Part shown: positions 2,970-11,191 of the stretch, piece after piece
How the letters are laid out: each line of letters starts with the position of its first letter
Numbering within the stretch: the first letter of the stretch is position 1
From: a bacterium
GTDB taxonomy: Bacteria; SM23-31; JAUVVT01
Reading direction: 5' to 3'
NCBI GenBank assembly: GCA_030616165.1
Contig: JAUWXV010000078.1
Span: 1 to 13,976 of the forward strand
Length of the DNA: 13,976 nt
Made by a program: the position numbers and the translations under genes
The notes under the pieces: generated by a model
Databases searched by the model: none
What the model was told of the DNA's origin: nothing
What the model saw: only the letters and a program-made list of their open reading frames with translations

Positions 2970-3109
2970 CCCACTTTCTTTGAAAAGAAAGTGGGCAAAG
3001 AAACTTTATACTTATTCCCCCGATTGCTCGGGGGGAATAAAAGTAAATTTTCCCCGCCATAGGCGGGTCCTTCGGATTGCTTACTTCTTTTTAAAAAGAA
3101 GAAAGTAAG
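2970..3109. repeat. Composite hairpin repeat, copy A
   Basis: Four palindromes follow one another. First, an 11-bp perfect stem CCCACTTTCTT/AAGAAAGTGGG (2970-2995) starts at the base after the nth stop and could end its transcript, though no T run follows. Second, TTATTCCCCC/GGGGGAATAA occupies 3012-3040. Third, CCCGCC/GGCGGG occupies 3053-3067. Fourth, an imperfect CTTACTT...AGTAAG hairpin occupies 3080-3109. The linker GGGCAAAGAAACTTTATA (2993-3010) recurs inverted in copy C. The last hairpin overlaps the end of the PfkB gene, whose stop codon (3091-3093) lies near the hairpin loop. Confidence 0.85.
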
Positions 3110-4038
3110 AGGTCTCCAAATTTCTTCTTTATATTTCTTTCTTTAAATAAATTTATAAAATTATCTATATCTTTTTTCGAGTAAGAAGGTGTAGCACCTT
3201 TTTTTAATGCGACAAATGCACCCAGATAGTTTGAAAACTCGGCAACCTCTTTCAGTGGTTTTTCCTGGAGGTATCCTGTGACCAGAGCCGCTATGAAAGC
3301 ATCTCCGGAACCAACGGTATCCACAGGGGTTATCTTTACTCCGGGTGAATAGATTATATCATTTTTGCCGAAAAATAGACAACCCCACCTGCCAAATGTG
3401 ATGCAAACCAGTTCGAGATTAAATTCATCTAATAGTCGATTAAGAAATGAAATATGCCCAACTTTTTCCTCGTTGAATGCTTTTTTAAGTTTTATAAATT
3501 CTGTATCATTTACCTTCAGGATGTCCGAGAGGAGCAAAGAATTTTCTACAATACTTAAATGGCTTTTTCTAAAACCTCTGAAATTTGCATCATAGACAAT
3601 AATTGCTTTTTTTTGTAATTTGAGAAAATCTGTGATTGTTTTTCTTGAGACATAATTTCTTTGGGCTAATGTTCCAAATAGCACGGCATCAACTTTTCCT
3701 GAAAGGGATTCAAGGTCGTTGTTAAGTTCGAGATAGTCAAAAGCAACATTTTTACTGCACAGAAATTTTGGAATTGAGCCGGGAAGAAGTTTCACGTGGA
3801 CCGTTCCAGTGTGGTAATTAGTGTCCTGTTGAATAAAATCTGTGTTTAGCCTTTTTTTTCTCAGTGTATGGATAATTTCCTCTCCTAATTTATCTTTACC
3901 CACTTTGCTCACAACGATGCCTTCATTTCCTAACAGATGTGCATGGAATGCAAAGTTTGCAGGTGCACCTCCAAGATATTTCTCAGAACCGTAAATGTCC
4001 CAGAGAACCTCTCCTATTCCAATTATTGTAAATTTCAT
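3091..4038 (-). CDS. PfkB-family carbohydrate kinase, fructokinase-like
   Basis: The protein (315 residues from the chosen start) phosphorylates a sugar, probably at a primary hydroxyl, using ATP. The N-terminal GIGEVLWDIYG and the signature GGAPANFAFHAHLLG (23-37) bind the sugar. GTLAQR (122-127) is a fructokinase-like element. The ATP and catalytic region includes KVNDTEF (175-181), TFGRWGC and the second signature DTVGSGDAF (240-248), with Asp246 as the predicted base. I prefer the ATG at 4036-4038 because AGGAA lies six bases upstream; an ATG two codons earlier abuts that site. The last residues, LLLSSF, and the stop are encoded inside a hairpin repeat, so the tail is not native family sequence. 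The gene follows queC across a repeat element, so co-transcription is possible. Substrate is not proven. Confidence 0.88.
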   Translation of the reverse strand: MKFTIIGIGEVLWDIYGSEKYLGGAPANFAFHAHLLGNEGIVVSKVGKDKLGEEIIHTLRKKRLNTDFIQQDTNYHTGTVHVKLLPGSIPKFLCSKNVAFDYLELNNDLESLSGKVDAVLFGTLAQRNYVSRKTITDFLKLQKKAIIVYDANFRGFRKSHLSIVENSLLLSDILKVNDTEFIKLKKAFNEEKVGHISFLNRLLDEFNLELVCITFGRWGCLFFGKNDIIYSPGVKITPVDTVGSGDAFIAALVTGYLQEKPLKEVAEFSNYLGAFVALKKGATPSYSKKDIDNFINLFKERNIKKKFGDLLLSSF

Positions 4039-4095
4039 ATTCATTTCCTGTTTTAAATAACAGTATACTCAATTTCTTTATAAGAAAACAACCAA

Positions 4096-4260
4096 GAACT
4101 TACTTCTTTTAGTAAAAGAAGTAAGCAAGAAAACTTTATCTTATTCCTTATTACTTGCTTCGCAAGGAATAAGGAATGGTCAAATTTCTCATCTTTTGCA
4201 GAGCAAAAGATGAGAAATAAATTAGAAGTTTTTTGCCTACTTTTTTTCAAAAAAGTAGGT
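4096..4260. repeat. Composite hairpin repeat, copy B
   Basis: Four hairpins fill the gap between queC and the PfkB gene. They are a perfect 12-bp stem CTTACTTCTTTT/AAAAGAAGTAAG with AGT loop (4099-4125); ATTCCTTATT/AATAAGGAAT around an inner CTTGC/GCAAG pair (4143-4177); a perfect 16-bp stem with AGA loop (4184-4218); and CCTACTTTTTT/AAAAAAGTAGG (4236-4259). The linker CAAGAAAACTTTAT after the first hairpin matches copy A's CAAAGAAACTTTAT. The whole is roughly two-fold symmetric. Confidence 0.85.
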
Positions 4261-4272
4261 AATTTTAATGAA

Positions 4273-4944
4273 TTATTTAACATATTCTATCGTATCCTTA
4301 ATTTCTGCTTCTTTAAATGCTTTGATTCTGATGACGCAGCTGCTGCATTCACCGCAGGCTTTATCTTCATTATTATAGCAAGACCAGGAGAGATGCAGTG
4401 GTGCATTAAGTTCTGTGCCCAATTTTACGATTTCGCTCTTTTTCATCGCTATAAGGGGCGTAATAATTTCGATTTTTGTTTCTGGTTTAGTTCCTAATTG
4501 GACGACTCTGTTAAATGCATCATAAAATACTTTTCTGCAGTCAGGGTAGCCTGGACTATCCTGTTCGACTGCACCGATAAACACAGCCTCAGCGCCGATG
4601 ACTTCTGCCCAACTCACAGCCTGCGACAAAATATTTGCATTCCTGAATGGAACATAAGTTGAAGGGATTCCAGTTATTTTTTGGATTGCTTTTTCAACTT
4701 TGATTTTTTCATCGGTAAGACTTGAACCACCAACCTGTTTAAGGAAGCCGAGGTCGACGGTTATCCTTTTTTTCACATTGTAATAATCTGCAATATCATT
4801 AAATGCTTTTAGTTCTCTTTTTTCAGTTCGCTGATGATAATTAGCATGCAGAAATATTAGTTCATATTTTTGGTATGCAATCGCAGCAGTAACGCAACTG
4901 TCCATCCCACCACTAACAAGGACAATTGCCTTTTTACTTTTCAT
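4273..4944 (-). CDS. queC: 7-cyano-7-deazaguanine synthase
   Basis: A 223-residue cytoplasmic enzyme that converts 7-carboxy-7-deazaguanine to preQ0, using ATP and ammonia, on the queuosine pathway. The PP-loop SGGMDS at 11-16 binds ATP. VPFRN (98-102) and the SPGYPDCR stretch (130-137) are typical of the family. Four cysteines (189, 197, 200, 203) in the spacing C-x7-C-x2-C-x2-C form the zinc site. Length is normal. The ATG at 4942-4944 lies one base after the queE stop and has no strong ribosome site of its own, so translation is probably coupled to queE. No queD, queF or folE is in the window. Confidence 0.95.
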   Translation of the reverse strand: MKSKKAIVLVSGGMDSCVTAAIAYQKYELIFLHANYHQRTEKRELKAFNDIADYYNVKKRITVDLGFLKQVGGSSLTDEKIKVEKAIQKITGIPSTYVPFRNANILSQAVSWAEVIGAEAVFIGAVEQDSPGYPDCRKVFYDAFNRVVQLGTKPETKIEIITPLIAMKKSEIVKLGTELNAPLHLSWSCYNNEDKACGECSSCVIRIKAFKEAEIKDTIEYVK

Positions 4945-4945
4945 A

Positions 4946-5581
4946 TTATTTTGCCCTGGTGTTTGGTCCCCAGATTAATTTATGTAGTTGGGGTTGAAAC
5001 CGAACACGAAGATTGTCTTCTAAAATCCATTTGATAAGTGCTTCAGGTTTAAGTTTTTCATAAACCACTGACATAAGGACAACGGCTCTATCGGTAAGTC
5101 CGCATTTTTCAATAATTCCTTTTGCCCAATCGTAGTCTTCTCTTGTTCCAATCACAAATTTCACCTGGTCATCTTTCTTGAGTTTATCGATATTCCGCCA
5201 ATCATTCTTTTTTAATTCGCCACTCGAAGGGCATTTCAAATCCATTACTATTATTGCTCCCTCTTTTATTAGACTAATATCTTGATTGCCGCTTGTTTCA
5301 ACGATTACTTTGTACCCCTTGTTTAACAGTTTTTCTATAAGAACAGGGGTATCTTTTTGTAGAAGCGGTTCACCGCCTGTTATTTCAATATATTCAATAC
5401 TGAAACTTTCAACTATATTTAGCAGTTCATCAACCGAAACCTCTTTACCATTATTATATGCATACTTTGTGTCACAATATGTGCACCTCAAGTTACATCC
5501 AGCGGTTCTTATGAATAGTGTAGGAATTCCCATATATATTGATTCTCCCTGAATGCTTTTAAATATTTCGTTAATCTTCAT
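4946..5581 (-). CDS. queE: 7-carboxy-7-deazaguanine synthase (radical SAM)
   Basis: A 211-residue radical SAM enzyme that contracts 6-carboxy-tetrahydropterin into 7-carboxy-7-deazaguanine, the step before QueC. The N-terminus MKINEIFKSIQGES matches QueE. The cluster motif CNLRCTYC (Cys29, 33, 36) is the standard CxxxCxxC. ITGGEPLLQ (67-75) and VETSGN (94-99) contribute to SAM binding, and the tail LHKLIWGPN is characteristic of the family. The start is an ATG at 5579-5581 with no clear Shine-Dalgarno. The region upstream holds only a decayed four-helix-bundle gene; I saw no preQ1 riboswitch there. Confidence 0.95.
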   Translation of the reverse strand: MKINEIFKSIQGESIYMGIPTLFIRTAGCNLRCTYCDTKYAYNNGKEVSVDELLNIVESFSIEYIEITGGEPLLQKDTPVLIEKLLNKGYKVIVETSGNQDISLIKEGAIIVMDLKCPSSGELKKNDWRNIDKLKKDDQVKFVIGTREDYDWAKGIIEKCGLTDRAVVLMSVVYEKLKPEALIKWILEDNLRVRFQPQLHKLIWGPNTRAK

Positions 5582-5585
5582 AATT

Positions 5586-5794
5586 TTATTTATGGTTTAT
5601 AAGCCATAAGCTATTAGCTTTTAGCTTAATAATTAGTTTATTAAACATTTGTTTAAAATATGATAGTTTACCGATAATTTCATAATAAGTTTTTGAGTTT
5701 ATATACTTCAAATCATAACAAAACACTATTTGATATTCTACTTCGTTTTCATAACCAAAAGCAATTCACATGAATCTGCAAAATCGGCATCATT
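5586..5794 (-). pseudogene. Remnant of a four-helix-bundle (23S rRNA intervening-sequence, S23) protein
   Basis: Reading the minus strand, one frame gives NNDADFADSCE. After a one-base shift near 5763-5770 the next frame gives IAFGYENEVEYQIVFCYDLKYI and then NSKTYYEIIGKLSYFKQMF, ending in IIKLKANS and a short tail to a TAA at 5586-5588. This is the pattern of the C-terminal half of the family, where a residue pair before a conserved ALGSANE(L/V)EYQ and a final ...LIKSLKANS are typical. The N-terminal half is missing: a TAG closes the frame just upstream, where an AGCTATTAG-type repeat begins. With one frameshift and half the length lost, it is almost certainly non-functional. The family assignment is from memory of its pattern. 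Confidence 0.7.
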
Positions 5795-5838
5795 ATTTTT
5801 TAATAGCTAATGACTAATAGCCAAAAGCTATCATGCTA
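5597..5838. repeat. AGCTATTAG-type word repeats flanking the pseudogene
   Basis: Related AGCTATTAG-like words occur at both edges of the remnant. On the left, 5602-5627 reads AGCCATAAGCTATTAGCTTT and on into AGCTT. On the right, 5801-5833 contains TAATAGCTAATGACTAATAG followed by CCAAAAGCTAT, which is roughly the inverse of the left block. The left block also encodes the last residues (KANSLWL) of the remnant. Such words are often seen around genes of this family. Boundaries are approximate. Confidence 0.45.
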
Positions 5839-5861
5839 AGTTTTTTAGGAATTATTCAGAT

Positions 5862-6647
5862 TTAATAAAATGATTGAAGGAATTTGATATTTCGATTGAG
5901 ATTTCTAATAGAGAATAATTCTTCAGGAATATCGATATTAAACTTTATCTCCAGAGTTACCATTTCCGTTTTTGTGTTTTTTCTTAATTTGTTCTCCATA
6001 ACAACATGTGTTGGATAGAATCTGTCTTTGTATTTTTCTACCTTCAGAACAGTCATTAATTTGAGCAGTTTTCCACTTTTTGCATAAAGTTCGCTTTTAA
6101 GGATGATAAATCTCTCTTTATCGACCCATATTTTTCTCATATAATATGTAACATCGTGTCTGATTGCTGTGAGTTGGAGAATATAGCATTCTCTTCCTTC
6201 AATAAATTCTTCTCCAATAATCTTTGGTTCATAATGTGTTATAAGTTTTTTAAGTTCGAGAGAATCTTCATAGGAGAAATCGGAGCCCATCATACTTTGT
6301 CTCAGCATATGACCTGCAATTTTTATAACCTTTTCGACACTCGGCAGATACATCCACAAATTATTTCCAAGTTTTAGATATTTTGTATCTCTGTCTCTTG
6401 AAGGATTTAAAAATATTGCGAAGGATGTGTCTTTTGCAAAGGCAAATCCTACCATCTCCTTTTCGTATATTCTTCTGCCTTGATGAATAATCATTTTTGA
6501 CCTGTGCTGGAGAGAATTTGGGACCAAATTATTGTCTACTTTGTTTACGATTTCTCTCGCAGTAATATTATTATTCCCCTTTATTTTTAGAGGGAAAAGA
6601 AGAAACAATATTAAAACTGATATTGGAAAATTTTTAAAAATATTCAT
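5862..6647 (-). CDS. LolA-like outer-membrane lipoprotein-sorting protein
   Basis: A 261-residue protein predicted to be periplasmic. Residues 1-24 look like a signal peptide: a short basic start, then ISVLILFLLFPL, with cleavage near KIKG/NNN. The rest is the beta-rich fold of the LolA-like 'outer membrane lipoprotein-sorting protein' family. Its diagnostic stretch LWMYLPSVEKVIKIAGHMLR (97-116) runs on into QSMMGSDFSYED, followed by long alternating strands. Family members are thought to carry a lipid or lipoprotein between membranes, and they commonly sit beside FtsX/MacB-type permeases, as here (two upstream on the same strand). No lipobox is present. Start is an ATG with no obvious ribosome site. 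A composite repeat separates it from the permease upstream. Confidence 0.82.
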   Translation of the reverse strand: MNIFKNFPISVLILFLLFPLKIKGNNNITAREIVNKVDNNLVPNSLQHRSKMIIHQGRRIYEKEMVGFAFAKDTSFAIFLNPSRDRDTKYLKLGNNLWMYLPSVEKVIKIAGHMLRQSMMGSDFSYEDSLELKKLITHYEPKIIGEEFIEGRECYILQLTAIRHDVTYYMRKIWVDKERFIILKSELYAKSGKLLKLMTVLKVEKYKDRFYPTHVVMENKLRKNTKTEMVTLEIKFNIDIPEELFSIRNLNRNIKFLQSFY

Positions 6648-6710
6648 AATGGATCAGATTTTAATTTTTATTTGAGAAAAATTAATTTTATCCTGAACAT
6701 TCGGGACAAG

Positions 6711-6830
6711 TATAAAGTTTCTTTGCCCACTTTCTTTGACACCTTTTTTGAAAAAAGTGTCCTAAAAAACTTTCTATTATTTCACATCCCAAATATTTGG
6801 GGTGAGAAATTGGATTAAAGTAAGTTGAAT
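6711..6830. repeat. Composite hairpin repeat, copy C (rearranged)
   Basis: Bases 6711-6737 are an exact inverted match (27 bases) to 2984-3010 in copy A, covering one arm of its first hairpin and the linker. Instead of the other arm, the sequence passes into GACACC-T6-G-A6-GTGTC (6738-6761), the hairpin that starts copy D, and then an imperfect palindrome ATTTCACATCCC/GGGGTGAGAAAT (6779-6810). A short TTAAAGTAAGTT lies at the right edge, two bases from the permease stop. It appears to be a chimera of the A and D types. Confidence 0.75.
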
Positions 6831-6831
6831 T

Positions 6832-8061
6832 TTATTGAACTCTTAATGCTTCTGCAGGTTCCATTCTCGATGCTTTTAATGCTGGCAAAAACGCTGCCAA
6901 AACAGAAGCAAAAAGACCCATTAAGAATGACCTGATTACTATGAGCCATGTCAGGTCGCCATAGATAACCTGTCGGATAGGAATGGGATATCCCTCTACT
7001 GCTTTACCAATTGTTATTCCTTTGACTTCAAGCAGATAACCGAATCCTGAACCGACCAGAATCCCGACAATACTGCCTATAATTCCAATCATCAGGGCTT
7101 CAAAAAGTAATGACATCAAAATCTGCCTTCCTTTCATACCAACAGCATTGATTATACCTATCTCCCAGGTTCTTTCAAATACCGACATGAGGATAGTATT
7201 TACAATTACAAGAACAGCGAGTAGAAGAAATATAATCTCAAAAACAATTATCATAACCTGGACTAAAGGATAATAAGTTTCTAAAGATCCAGCCTGGAGC
7301 CAGTTAAGAAGAACGTAATTTTCAGATATTTCAGGTATCGTTTTTATTATGTTAATTACTTCATCGGTTTTTTTATAATCATCAGTGAAAACGAGAATCT
7401 CTGTCACCCTATCATACATATCAAGAAGGTCCTGGGCTTTATTGAGCGGCATATAGAATATTTTATTCATGTTATAATTGAGAAGGTCGCATATCCCGAT
7501 TATCCTGAGGTTAGCTGCGTTCAGTGAATTGTAGGCAGTGCTGACAATTACCGTTATGGTGTCACCAATATCAAGATTAAGAGAACTCACAATTTCCCTT
7601 CCTACAATAGTTTCATCATCCTTACCGGTGAAATACTGCCCTTTAATTAATGAGTTTTGTAAGTTTAATATTTCCCTCTCATCATCGGGAACTATTCCCA
7701 TTCCCAAACCGGTTTCATTCTTATCATTAATATTAATGATTGACCCGAATTTTATCCTGCCAGTGGCAAGTTTTATTTCCTTATTCTTTTTCAGTAGTTC
7801 GATTATATCCACATAGTTTTCTACTGGCACATTCAGAGAAAGCATTCGTTGCTTAAGTTTATACTCCGGATGTTGTAATTTTATATGACCTGTCGATTTT
7901 ATCGTGTCCTCGACGATATCTCCCATTACACCTCCAAAGTAACTTTCCAAAAAAACTACCGCCGAAACCGAAATCAAAACTGCTGTACAGGTTATTATTG
8001 TCCTTCTCGTATTTCTGAATATATTTCTGAATGCTATTTTAATCAGTATTGTATTCTTCAT
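6832..8061 (-). CDS. FtsX/MacB (LolC/E)-type ABC transporter permease, second of two
   Basis: A 409-residue inner-membrane permease. An N-terminal helix (about 23-43, CTAVLISVSAVVFLE) is followed by a large periplasmic domain. A C-terminal FtsX domain has three helices: VMIIVFEIIFLLLAVLVIVN, LLFEALMIGIIGSIVGILVG, and a last one before the closing LPALKASRMEPAEALR. The loop FERTWEIGIINAVGMKGRQI is the typical contact for the ATPase. I start at the ATG at 8059-8061: a longer reading from TTG at 8107-8109 would add 16 residues encoded by a repeat hairpin, and the shorter start gives a length matching the neighbouring permease (407). Its partner ATPase is not in the window. Confidence 0.85.
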   Translation of the reverse strand: MKNTILIKIAFRNIFRNTRRTIITCTAVLISVSAVVFLESYFGGVMGDIVEDTIKSTGHIKLQHPEYKLKQRMLSLNVPVENYVDIIELLKKNKEIKLATGRIKFGSIININDKNETGLGMGIVPDDEREILNLQNSLIKGQYFTGKDDETIVGREIVSSLNLDIGDTITVIVSTAYNSLNAANLRIIGICDLLNYNMNKIFYMPLNKAQDLLDMYDRVTEILVFTDDYKKTDEVINIIKTIPEISENYVLLNWLQAGSLETYYPLVQVMIIVFEIIFLLLAVLVIVNTILMSVFERTWEIGIINAVGMKGRQILMSLLFEALMIGIIGSIVGILVGSGFGYLLEVKGITIGKAVEGYPIPIRQVIYGDLTWLIVIRSFLMGLFASVLAAFLPALKASRMEPAEALRVQ

Positions 8062-8069
8062 ATTATTTA

Positions 8070-8218
8070 AAGTTACTTTAACACCTTTTTTGAAAAAAAG
8101 GTGTCCCAAAAAACTTGCTATTATTCCTCATCCCCCGAGTACTCGGGGGATGAGGAATATGTCTAAAGTTTGTTTTCCGCCTAAGGCGGTTCTTACTTTC
8201 TTTTTTAAAGAAAGTAAG
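8070..8218. repeat. Composite hairpin repeat, copy D
   Basis: It lies between the two permease genes, directly after the first permease's stop. Its parts are ACACC-T6-GA-A6-GGTGT (8081-8104); a perfect 38-base palindrome without loop centred on GAGTACTC (8122-8159); CCGCC-TAA-GGCGG (8177-8189); and a 12-bp stem CTTACTTTCTTT/AAAGAAAGTAAG (8192-8218). The order is the same as in copy A: first hairpin, linker, CCCC-rich central palindrome, small CCGCC hairpin, CTTACTT hairpin. Confidence 0.88.
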
Positions 8219-9442
8219 TTATACTTTTCTTAATGCTTCGCTCGGAACCATCTTTGACGCTTTAAGTGCCGGATAAAGTCCGGAAATAACAGATACTACC
8301 ACTCCTAAACAAAAGGTTGAAACAACCATTCCAACCGTAAGGTCAGCATAAAAAGTAGATATTGGAAAAGACGTGATACCTTCGATTCCCAACATTTCAA
8401 AACTAAGACCATGTGTTTCAAGGTAATAGGTAGCAACAGAACCTAATAAACATCCCACTATACTGCCAAATAATCCGATGAATGCGGATTCAAGGCAGAA
8501 GAGATAAGTGATATTTTTTGGTTTCATGCCAATAGCCATCATAGTTCCAATTTCTCTTATCCTTTCATACACAGACATCAAAATTGTATTAGCAATCCCG
8601 GCGGCTGCCATTAAGAGAATTACAAAAACTATTATTAAATTTGCTTTGGTTTTCATTTCCATCATATCAAAGAGGTCTTTCATATTTTCCTTATATGTCT
8701 CAATATCAAGTCCATATTGTTTAAGGGATATGTTTTTTACTGCATCGACATCCTCAATGTTGTTTAATAAAAGGGAAACCTCGGTAATTTCTTTCTCCAT
8801 TTCAAGGAGATTCTGTGCAATATCAATGGGAATAAAGAAATATTGATTATCGATTTCAGGATTTCCGCAATTAATAATACCCTTTATCTGAAAATCAAGT
8901 GCAGCAATCGTGTTATATTTTGACCGTGCAATGACCGTGAGATAATCTTCCACTCCCACTTCGAATAGTTCTGCAAGTTCAGTTCCCAAAAGCATTTTTT
9001 CTTCACCTGATTTGAGATATTCTCCTTCTATTATAGATTCACTTCGCATAAATACATCATCCTCACGCTCAGGGTCGATTCCTGCTCCGATACACACCAA
9101 TTCGTCAATACCATCGTTTAAATGACCTGAAAAGATTATTCTCGGCGCATTACTTTTTATCTCTTTAATTTTTTGCAAATCATTTAATAATTTATCATAT
9201 TCCTCAATTCGATAATCAAGTGAAAGAATATCTTTATCATCGATATATCCATTTCCATACATTTTAAGATGGGCTGTCATGTAGTCTATTGCTGATTTTA
9301 GCATCTGCTTATCAAATCCCTTCATAAAACCAAGAAAAATAATAGCATAGCATATTCCCAGAGAGACTGCTATAAATGATAGAACACTCCTTCGGAAGTT
9401 CCTGAATACATTTCTATATGCTAATTTAATCAGGGTAAACAT
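8219..9442 (-). CDS. FtsX/MacB (LolC/E)-type ABC transporter permease, first of two
   Basis: A 407-residue inner-membrane permease with the same plan as its neighbour: an N-terminal KLAYRNVFRNFRRS amphipathic start, one helix (SFIAVSLGICYAIIFLGFM), a periplasmic domain of about 220 residues, then the FtsX domain with IIVFVILLMAAAGIANTILM, SAFIGLFGSIVGCLLGSVAT and a final helix before YPALKASKMVPSEALRKV. The coupling loop YERIREIGTMMAIGMKPKN is conserved. Two such permeases side by side usually form a heterodimer, as in LolCE. Its stop codon directly abuts repeat copy D. The upstream partner is a beta-barrel gene 130 bases away. Transported substrate is unknown; lipid or lipoprotein is the likely class. 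Confidence 0.88.
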   Translation of the reverse strand: MFTLIKLAYRNVFRNFRRSVLSFIAVSLGICYAIIFLGFMKGFDKQMLKSAIDYMTAHLKMYGNGYIDDKDILSLDYRIEEYDKLLNDLQKIKEIKSNAPRIIFSGHLNDGIDELVCIGAGIDPEREDDVFMRSESIIEGEYLKSGEEKMLLGTELAELFEVGVEDYLTVIARSKYNTIAALDFQIKGIINCGNPEIDNQYFFIPIDIAQNLLEMEKEITEVSLLLNNIEDVDAVKNISLKQYGLDIETYKENMKDLFDMMEMKTKANLIIVFVILLMAAAGIANTILMSVYERIREIGTMMAIGMKPKNITYLFCLESAFIGLFGSIVGCLLGSVATYYLETHGLSFEMLGIEGITSFPISTFYADLTVGMVVSTFCLGVVVSVISGLYPALKASKMVPSEALRKV

Positions 9443-10864: not shown

Positions 10865-10910
10865 ATTATTTTCATGTATCGTGGCGCTGCACAGCAGTAT
10901 GAGTGTTTAT

Positions 10911-11030
10911 TCCGAAAATAGAATATATTTTTAAATTAAATGAATATGATTATTTTAATTATCGGGTTCGATAAATCGAACCCCTACAAATGTTATCATT
11001 ATAATTGTAGGGGCTTGATAAATCAAGACC
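10911..11030. repeat. 120-base direct repeat, copy 1, with inverted ends
   Basis: This copy is nearly identical to 11071-11191 at an offset of about 161 bases. It contains hairpin GGGTTCGA-TAAA-TCGAACCC (10964-10983), a CTACAA...TTGTAG pair and a CTTGA-TAAA-TCAAG hairpin. The outer arms 10964-10988 and 11006-11030 are imperfect inverted copies (18 of 25 positions), as in a small MITE-like element. Confidence 0.8.
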
Positions 11031-11070
11031 GTTATGTTAATTTTTGTTAAATCTGCACTTACATAATTAA

Positions 11071-11191
11071 TCCAGAAAATGGAATATATTTTTGAATTAA
11101 ATGAATATGATTATTTTAATTATCGGGTTCGATAAATCGAACCCCTACAAATGTTATCATTATAATTGTAGGGGCTTGATTTATCAAGCCC
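11071..11191. repeat. 120-base direct repeat, copy 2
   Basis: This is the second copy of the unit at 10911-11030. It differs by a few bases, including TTTATCAAG for TAAATCAAG near the end. It lies 14 bases from the xylulokinase stop codon, so its hairpins would form in the 3' part of that transcript and could act as a terminator. Confidence 0.8.

Follow-up and report, generated by a model that had tools for sequence, protein, structure and literature searches.

The window, a 13,976-nucleotide stretch of bacterial DNA, carries composite hairpin elements in four intergenic gaps between positions 2,970 and 8,218. An earlier note had placed all four between minus-strand genes, but element 1 lies between the convergent genes nth (plus strand) and a PfkB kinase gene (minus strand). 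Its left module begins on the base immediately following the nth stop codon (TAA, 2967-2969), and the predicted 3' end of the PfkB kinase gene (3091) extends into the element. The outer end of the right hairpin of element 4 similarly abuts the stop codon of the second permease gene (8219-8221, minus strand). The parts of the four elements are as follows:

2970-3006, plus strand: element 1, left module, type A; hairpin CCCACTTTCTTTGAAAAGAAAGTGGG, then C, AAAGAAA and CTT
3012-3040, strand not applicable: element 1, central palindrome TTATTCCCCCGATTGCTCGGGGGGAATAA
3041-3109, minus strand: element 1, right module, type B, read on the minus strand; hairpin at 3077-3109 including CAA
4099-4136, plus strand: element 2, left module, type B; arm CTTCTTTT and linker CAAGAAAAC, a mirror and not a direct copy
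4141-4177, strand not applicable: element 2, central palindrome a
4184-4218, strand not applicable: element 2, central palindrome b
4226-4259, minus strand: element 2, right module, core wholly A/T (CCTACTTTTTTGAAAAAAAGTAGGCAAAAAACTT)
6703-6737, minus strand: element 3, what remains of an A-type end (hairpin without its 5' arm); complementary to 2984-3018 at 94%
6738-6772, plus strand: element 3, C-type module GACACCTTTTTTGAAAAAAGTGTCCTAAAAAACTT, abutting the A-type remnant
6779-6810: element 3, central palindrome; the right end after it is cut short (AAAGTAAG, to about 6824)
8081-8116, plus strand: element 4, left module, type C (ACACCTTTTTTGAAAAAAAGGTGTCCCAAAAAACTT)
8122-8159, strand not applicable: element 4, central palindrome TATTCCTCATCCCCCGAGTACTCGGGGGATGAGGAATA
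8177-8189, strand not applicable: element 4, small hairpin CCGCCTAAGGCGG, inserted in the right linker
8192-8218, minus strand: element 4, right hairpin, type A

A module is made up of a hairpin, with one pyrimidine and one purine arm, and of a linker 3' to it, which is a purine tract with a C at either side and then CTT; all modules within the window are A/T-rich, with CTTTCTTT as the type A arm and CTTCTTTT as the type B arm. An element is an inverted pair of such end modules around a changeable central palindrome. Elements 1, 2 and 4 are complete composites, in which a hairpin and its linker are followed by one or two central palindromes and then by the linker and hairpin in inverse, so the shared order of parts described in the earlier note stood when we read and folded 2970-3109, 4099-4259 and 8081-8218. 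It did not stand at 6711-6830, since element 3 (6703-6830) is a broken composite of an A-type end minus its 5' arm, a C-type module and a truncated right end. The inverse repetition of hairpin and linker at the other end was likewise borne out in the three complete copies, except that elements 1 and 4 have a plain linker at the left end only. In the right linker of element 1, the sequence after CAA is broken by the hairpin TCCGAAGGACCCGCCTATGGCGGG (3053-3076), and the rest reads GAAAATTTACTT (3041-3052). The small hairpin (CGCC/GGCGG) that had been listed as a regular component is not a fixed part of the order but an insertion inside the linker of some right ends. Folded as RNA, elements 1, 2 and 4 gave about -61 to -69 kcal/mol on both strands, values that refer to the native sequence only, with no shuffle control.

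BLAST searches with three copies returned about 50 matches per query copy in the genome to which the window belongs (G000; 3.74 Mb, 343 contigs), and a covariance model of the 37-nt end module, a search that the earlier note had suggested, found at least 116 matches there. Since only 150 candidates were scored and C-type modules are poorly captured by the model, the figure of 116 is probably a minimum, even though a few sites were matched on both strands. These numbers dispose of the possibility, raised in the same note, that the family amounts to just four copies whose alignment is limited to T/A runs. Elements were also present in the sister genus (G001; cold-seep MAG CSMAG_1171, same family), and none were found in the four class-level relatives that we searched. 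Across 290 genomes, comprising close relatives and others of the same domain, the covariance model matched in 6, 4 of them outside the family. Oscillospirales (Gemmiger among them), Ignavibacteria, Chlorobi, Chloroflexi and Nitrospirae contain matches to an exact 29-base pattern, a patchy distribution that fits transfer or loss. The type A pattern had no copy in viral contigs and no similar stretch in phages, while a plasmid search yielded one Subdoligranulum record and two weak Caballeronia matches.

The modules obey a rule that the earlier note did not see. The linker is the mirror image of the purine arm of its hairpin, not a copy of it, in 99 of 99 informative pattern matches. The lengths of the T-runs in the 5' arm, read from stem base to tip, equal those of the A-runs in the linker, with the combinations (3,3), (2,4), (4,2), (3,4), (5,2), (6,2), (4,6) and (3,1,2) among those found. 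The 99 matches come from a search of 22 genomes, with hits in 10, in which any of four linkers was allowed after each of four arms. All 77 CTTTTCTT arms have the linker CAAAAGAAC, all 22 CTTCTTTT arms have CAAGAAAAC, and none of these 99 arms in the 22 genomes is followed by a direct-copy linker; the reversed-pattern control gave 0 matches. The sole departure in this search was a homopolymer-T arm with the linker CAAAAGAAC. Many of the matches are paralogs within a genome and thus non-independent, so that the strength of the rule rests on how many different tracts and taxa it covers and not on raw counts. A Nitrospirae genome adds many more tracts, up to AAAAGAAAGAA, which occurs with TTTTCTTTCTT.

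The same dependence was seen when 38 distinct modules were aligned. At the three variable positions of the third strand, every cell (100%) agrees with parallel pairing to the 5' arm, and 29 of these cells have changed on both sides; when the third strand was slid by 1 to 3 columns, no such cells remained. Within the hairpin, 63 cells have changed on both sides and 98.8% are paired; compensatory changes, a kind of evidence that the earlier note had proposed to look for, exist in both the outer stem and the core of the modules. We also considered the linker as a direct copy of the purine arm, antiparallel to the 5' arm; this arrangement fails at columns 8/32 and 10/30, and the pattern search contained 0 direct copies. 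An exact finder for class II intrastrand triplex motifs returned mirror versus direct-copy control matches of 35/7, 12/2, 49/13, 7/2 and 67/8, with several of the direct-copy matches being the same loci in another register. Although the element cores are short and A/T-rich, it is scarcely conceivable that the elements are a chance product of A/T-rich sequence, given that the 29-base pattern is near-identical in several phyla, that there are at least 116 copies, and that the mirror rule is strict, with G positions moving together.

The layout resembles a known class of repeats. The BoxC/PIT/TM_ECO sequences of E. coli and other proteobacteria are class II intrastrand triplex motifs (Holder et al. 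2015, PMC4666352). A pyrimidine arm, a purine arm and a mirror purine tract on one strand are what defines class II, and the modules agree with the published ranges (stems of 6-15 nt; third stem mirroring the purine stem) in having core stems of 7-11 nt and spacers of 2-9 nt. By this definition, we class the window elements, from their sequence, as an A/T-rich, cross-phylum variant of the BoxC kind of motif. In E. coli, BoxC/PIT elements are G/C-rich and intergenic, with 23 copies in K-12 that include five inverted pairs of the unlike subtypes A and B, and the intergenic sequence at their loci is altered between strains (PMC4666352). The window elements share with them the order of pyrimidine arm, loop, purine arm, short spacer and mirror-image purine third strand, as well as their dispersed, intergenic occurrence in inverted pairs of unlike subtypes. 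The BoxC pair between hrpB and mrcB of E. coli (L365) even has the layout of window elements 1, 2 and 4, with third strands facing inward, and no inverted allele of it was found among the E. coli genomes searched. In contrast to BoxC, elements of the window type show many different core sequences, each covarying with its third strand; their center is usually palindromic, with one or two hairpins, their linkers are A/T-rich and end in CTT, and they occur in other phyla. The A/T-rich modules of the window also do not match the narrow TM_ECO consensus, CCCTCNCCCN3-6GGGNGAGGGN3GGGNGAGGG (PMC4666352). With H-DNA the elements share a purine/pyrimidine tract with mirror symmetry, which any intramolecular triplex needs; however, H-DNA arises from duplex mirror repeats, whereas the hairpin and third strand of an element lie on one strand, so that single-stranded DNA suffices, and the tracts are short (7-11 nt).

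Genome-wide statistics for G000 rest on a contig sample together with the profile and pattern searches of the genome. In 735 kb of contigs chosen regardless of content, hairpins with a pyrimidine 5' arm outnumbered the reverse by 42 to 6. No module in the contig sample lay inside an open reading frame (0/23), although these cover 80% of it; 20 of the 23 fell in gaps between tandem genes, and the modules were clumped (p about 0.001). Among the 11 modules whose outer end faces a stop codon, 6 start exactly on the next base. Other taxa also have modules flush with stop codons, TAA or TGA being followed at once by CCTAC or a similar sequence. In another genome (G050; L277-L291), modules stand in tandem 87-bp units beside a terminator-like CCCGTCGG hairpin, in up to three copies, which suggests local amplification.

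Positions directly after stop codons, mostly in tandem gaps, raise the question of whether the elements act as RNA, that is, as structured gene 3' ends that stabilize mRNA or limit read-through within an operon. Their strong folding as RNA on both strands and the retention of element sites across two genera at 75% coding identity speak for such a role. We nevertheless regard it as unlikely. RNA does not form triplexes of the purine motif (cited in PMC4666352), whereas it is a purine third strand that covaries at one end of every strand; the tails after the hairpins are poor U-tracts, with 6 terminator-like matches versus 3.0 +/- 1.9 in shuffles; and the PIT elements of E. coli have neither promoter nor terminator activity and no known function (PMC4666352). 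An Rfam search of the elements gave sub-threshold matches only, none above the gathering score. The tie between each linker and its own hairpin by the mirror rule points instead to a three-stranded DNA fold rather than an array of RNA hairpins, and any RNA role of the elements may have been acquired secondarily.

We compared orthologous gaps of G000 and G001, whose coding identity is about 75%. Most gaps are filled in both genomes, with hairpin types and centers exchanged; in one (L052/L166), both ends are kept and the center is different. The proposal of the earlier note that the center varies in sequence while holding its position thus extends even to orthologs. In a few gaps, just one of the two genomes carries an element (G001 at L153, G000 at L020), and presence or absence also distinguishes Gemmiger genomes: an element stands right after a stop codon in G053 and G322 and is absent after the same gene in 10 other genomes that we read. 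Beside dnaA, the Gemmiger genomes G341 and G333 carry the same element in opposite orientation (144 bp at 84%, plus/minus, with collinear flanks), and the breakpoints of this inversion are the outer hairpins. In the corresponding loci (L396 and L397), the element sits between the dnaA stop codon and a DnaA-box-like TTATCCACA directly after it, and it may touch origin function. The stronger matches in G333 and G341, which as related genomes count once, fall within 9-12% of the chromosome around dnaA. Strong modules in contig C1 of each of these two genomes lie mostly on one strand, which flips 50-200 kb to the right of dnaA. A clustering of the Gemmiger copies at the terminus, as deduced from strand flips, was rejected, since dnaA lies inside the cluster. 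At a further locus (L171, 2429-3047), about 600 bp of extra intergenic DNA holds several unrelated repeat-like pieces in the window's own genome and is absent from the sister genus.

Inverted ends, high copy number and gain or loss between related species are also what classical MITEs would produce, their terminal inverted repeats being moved by the DDE transposase of a full-length parent. This origin is very improbable here, as inspection by eye showed no target-site duplications in the complete copies and none were seen where Gemmiger gained an element, the ends of the elements are themselves hairpins and are unlike in sequence within one element, and no gene flanked by inverted modules was found in the loci read. 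Among the complete copies and loci that we read, we found no enzyme for the elements, no target duplications and no autonomous copy. The lack of target duplications in complete copies fits single-strand DNA transposition.

The earlier note's view of a mobile or maintained element under structural constraint is partly supported, by the compensatory changes, the number of copies, their taxa and their gain and loss, though it lacked the mirror relation between linker and hairpin. We consider it probable that these are dispersed, non-autonomous DNA elements in which two inverted modules, each an A/T-rich class II intrastrand triplex motif, flank a palindromic center that can be exchanged. Each module presents, in order, a 5' pyrimidine arm, a loop, a purine arm, a short spacer and a mirror-image purine third strand. 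When the DNA is single-stranded, either as lagging-strand template or when extruded under supercoiling, each end would fold into a hairpin with the third strand lodged in its major groove through A.A-T and G.G-C contacts in reverse Hoogsteen geometry. We place this fold in single-stranded DNA because purine-motif triplexes do not form in RNA. The triplex would be what the element is selected for or recognized by, and a folded pair of inverted ends could promote strand switching during replication, by which the center is flipped or replaced. Such strand switching would account for the exchanged centers and the inversion; dispersal to new sites would require a further process.

Triplex formation in the cell is something that we infer from sequence. 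The observations call for a factor or process that engages hairpin and third strand jointly, and a triplex need not be what the mirror rule serves. A closed outer stem leaves 1-2 bases to span about 5 bp before the third strand engages, which is a point against the triplex. The G/C-rich class II motif forms a triplex in vitro by CD and NMR but has not been seen stably folded in E. coli, and the in-cell relevance of intrastrand DNA triplexes is unsettled (PMC4666352). Purine-motif triplexes that are rich in A/T and 7-8 nt long would be expected to be less stable than the G/C-rich ones that have been measured. Only tentatively would we go further and suggest that the mirror covariation proves, on evolutionary grounds, that living bacteria use a three-stranded DNA fold, that a widespread single-stranded DNA enzyme recognizes ends made of a hairpin plus a third strand and moves, flips and re-centers the elements, and that the Gemmiger dnaA copy is an invertible example.

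BoxC repeats are little understood, and the window elements represent an unusually well-conserved, A/T-rich version of them. Covariation across many sequences and phyla indicates that the third strand is maintained, and it explains a conspicuous class of A/T-rich intergenic repeats of unrelated genomes. Dozens of natural variants are available for testing, with the in-place inversion beside dnaA as a readout. In the literature that we searched, hairpin-third-strand covariation has not been shown for the class II motif, and the element sequences themselves are not printed in the relevant papers. As far as this search reached, the covariation of the third strand across phyla, the A/T-rich composite with an exchangeable center, the flush placement at stop codons and the dnaA-side inversion are new.

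Repeats of the REP/BIME type also occur in this genome, and the elements could in principle belong to them and be moved by its Y1 (RAYT) transposases, for which we found seven Y1_Tnp matches. GTAG/CGTC REPs and BIMEs are palindromic and intergenic, often form inverted pairs, and lie mostly downstream of genes, between tandem or convergent open reading frames (PMC3733652). The elements resemble them in all of these respects, as well as in high copy number and the lack of target duplications, and one RAYT gene (C302) has a type A hairpin on its 5' side. Unlike REPs, however, the elements have a third-strand tract in place of a GTAG or CGTC tag, and they are not grouped around the RAYT genes of their own genome. 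The foot of the module hairpin varies (CCC, CCT, CTT, GTT, GAC and others) with a compensating partner. Only 1 of the 7 Y1_Tnp loci has an adjoining module hairpin, on one side only, and this C302 hairpin looks like an element cut by insertion of the RAYT. Most RAYTs instead sit among GTAG-type hairpins of other sequence, such as the array around the RAYT of C182 and the TGTAGGGG... units near others. REP/BIME membership therefore seems quite unlikely.

Within the window, positions 10906-11191 hold two 125-nt direct repeats (94%), each with a GTAG-type hairpin pair (TGTAGGGGCTTGATTTATCAAGCCC), and since similar units flank a RAYT gene in L097, these repeats are a separate, canonical REP family in the same genome. 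At L091 (900-2360), two arrays of GTAG hairpins in head-to-tail order (CCCGAGCCTGGGGACAGGCTCGGCTACGGAAA) flank a RAYT gene, an obvious case of a RAYT with its REP array. Finally, a REP-like stretch at 130-265 of the window (TCCCGAAGTTTCGGGAC ... GGAATGACAT), upstream of an rRNA methyltransferase-like gene, represents another repeat type.
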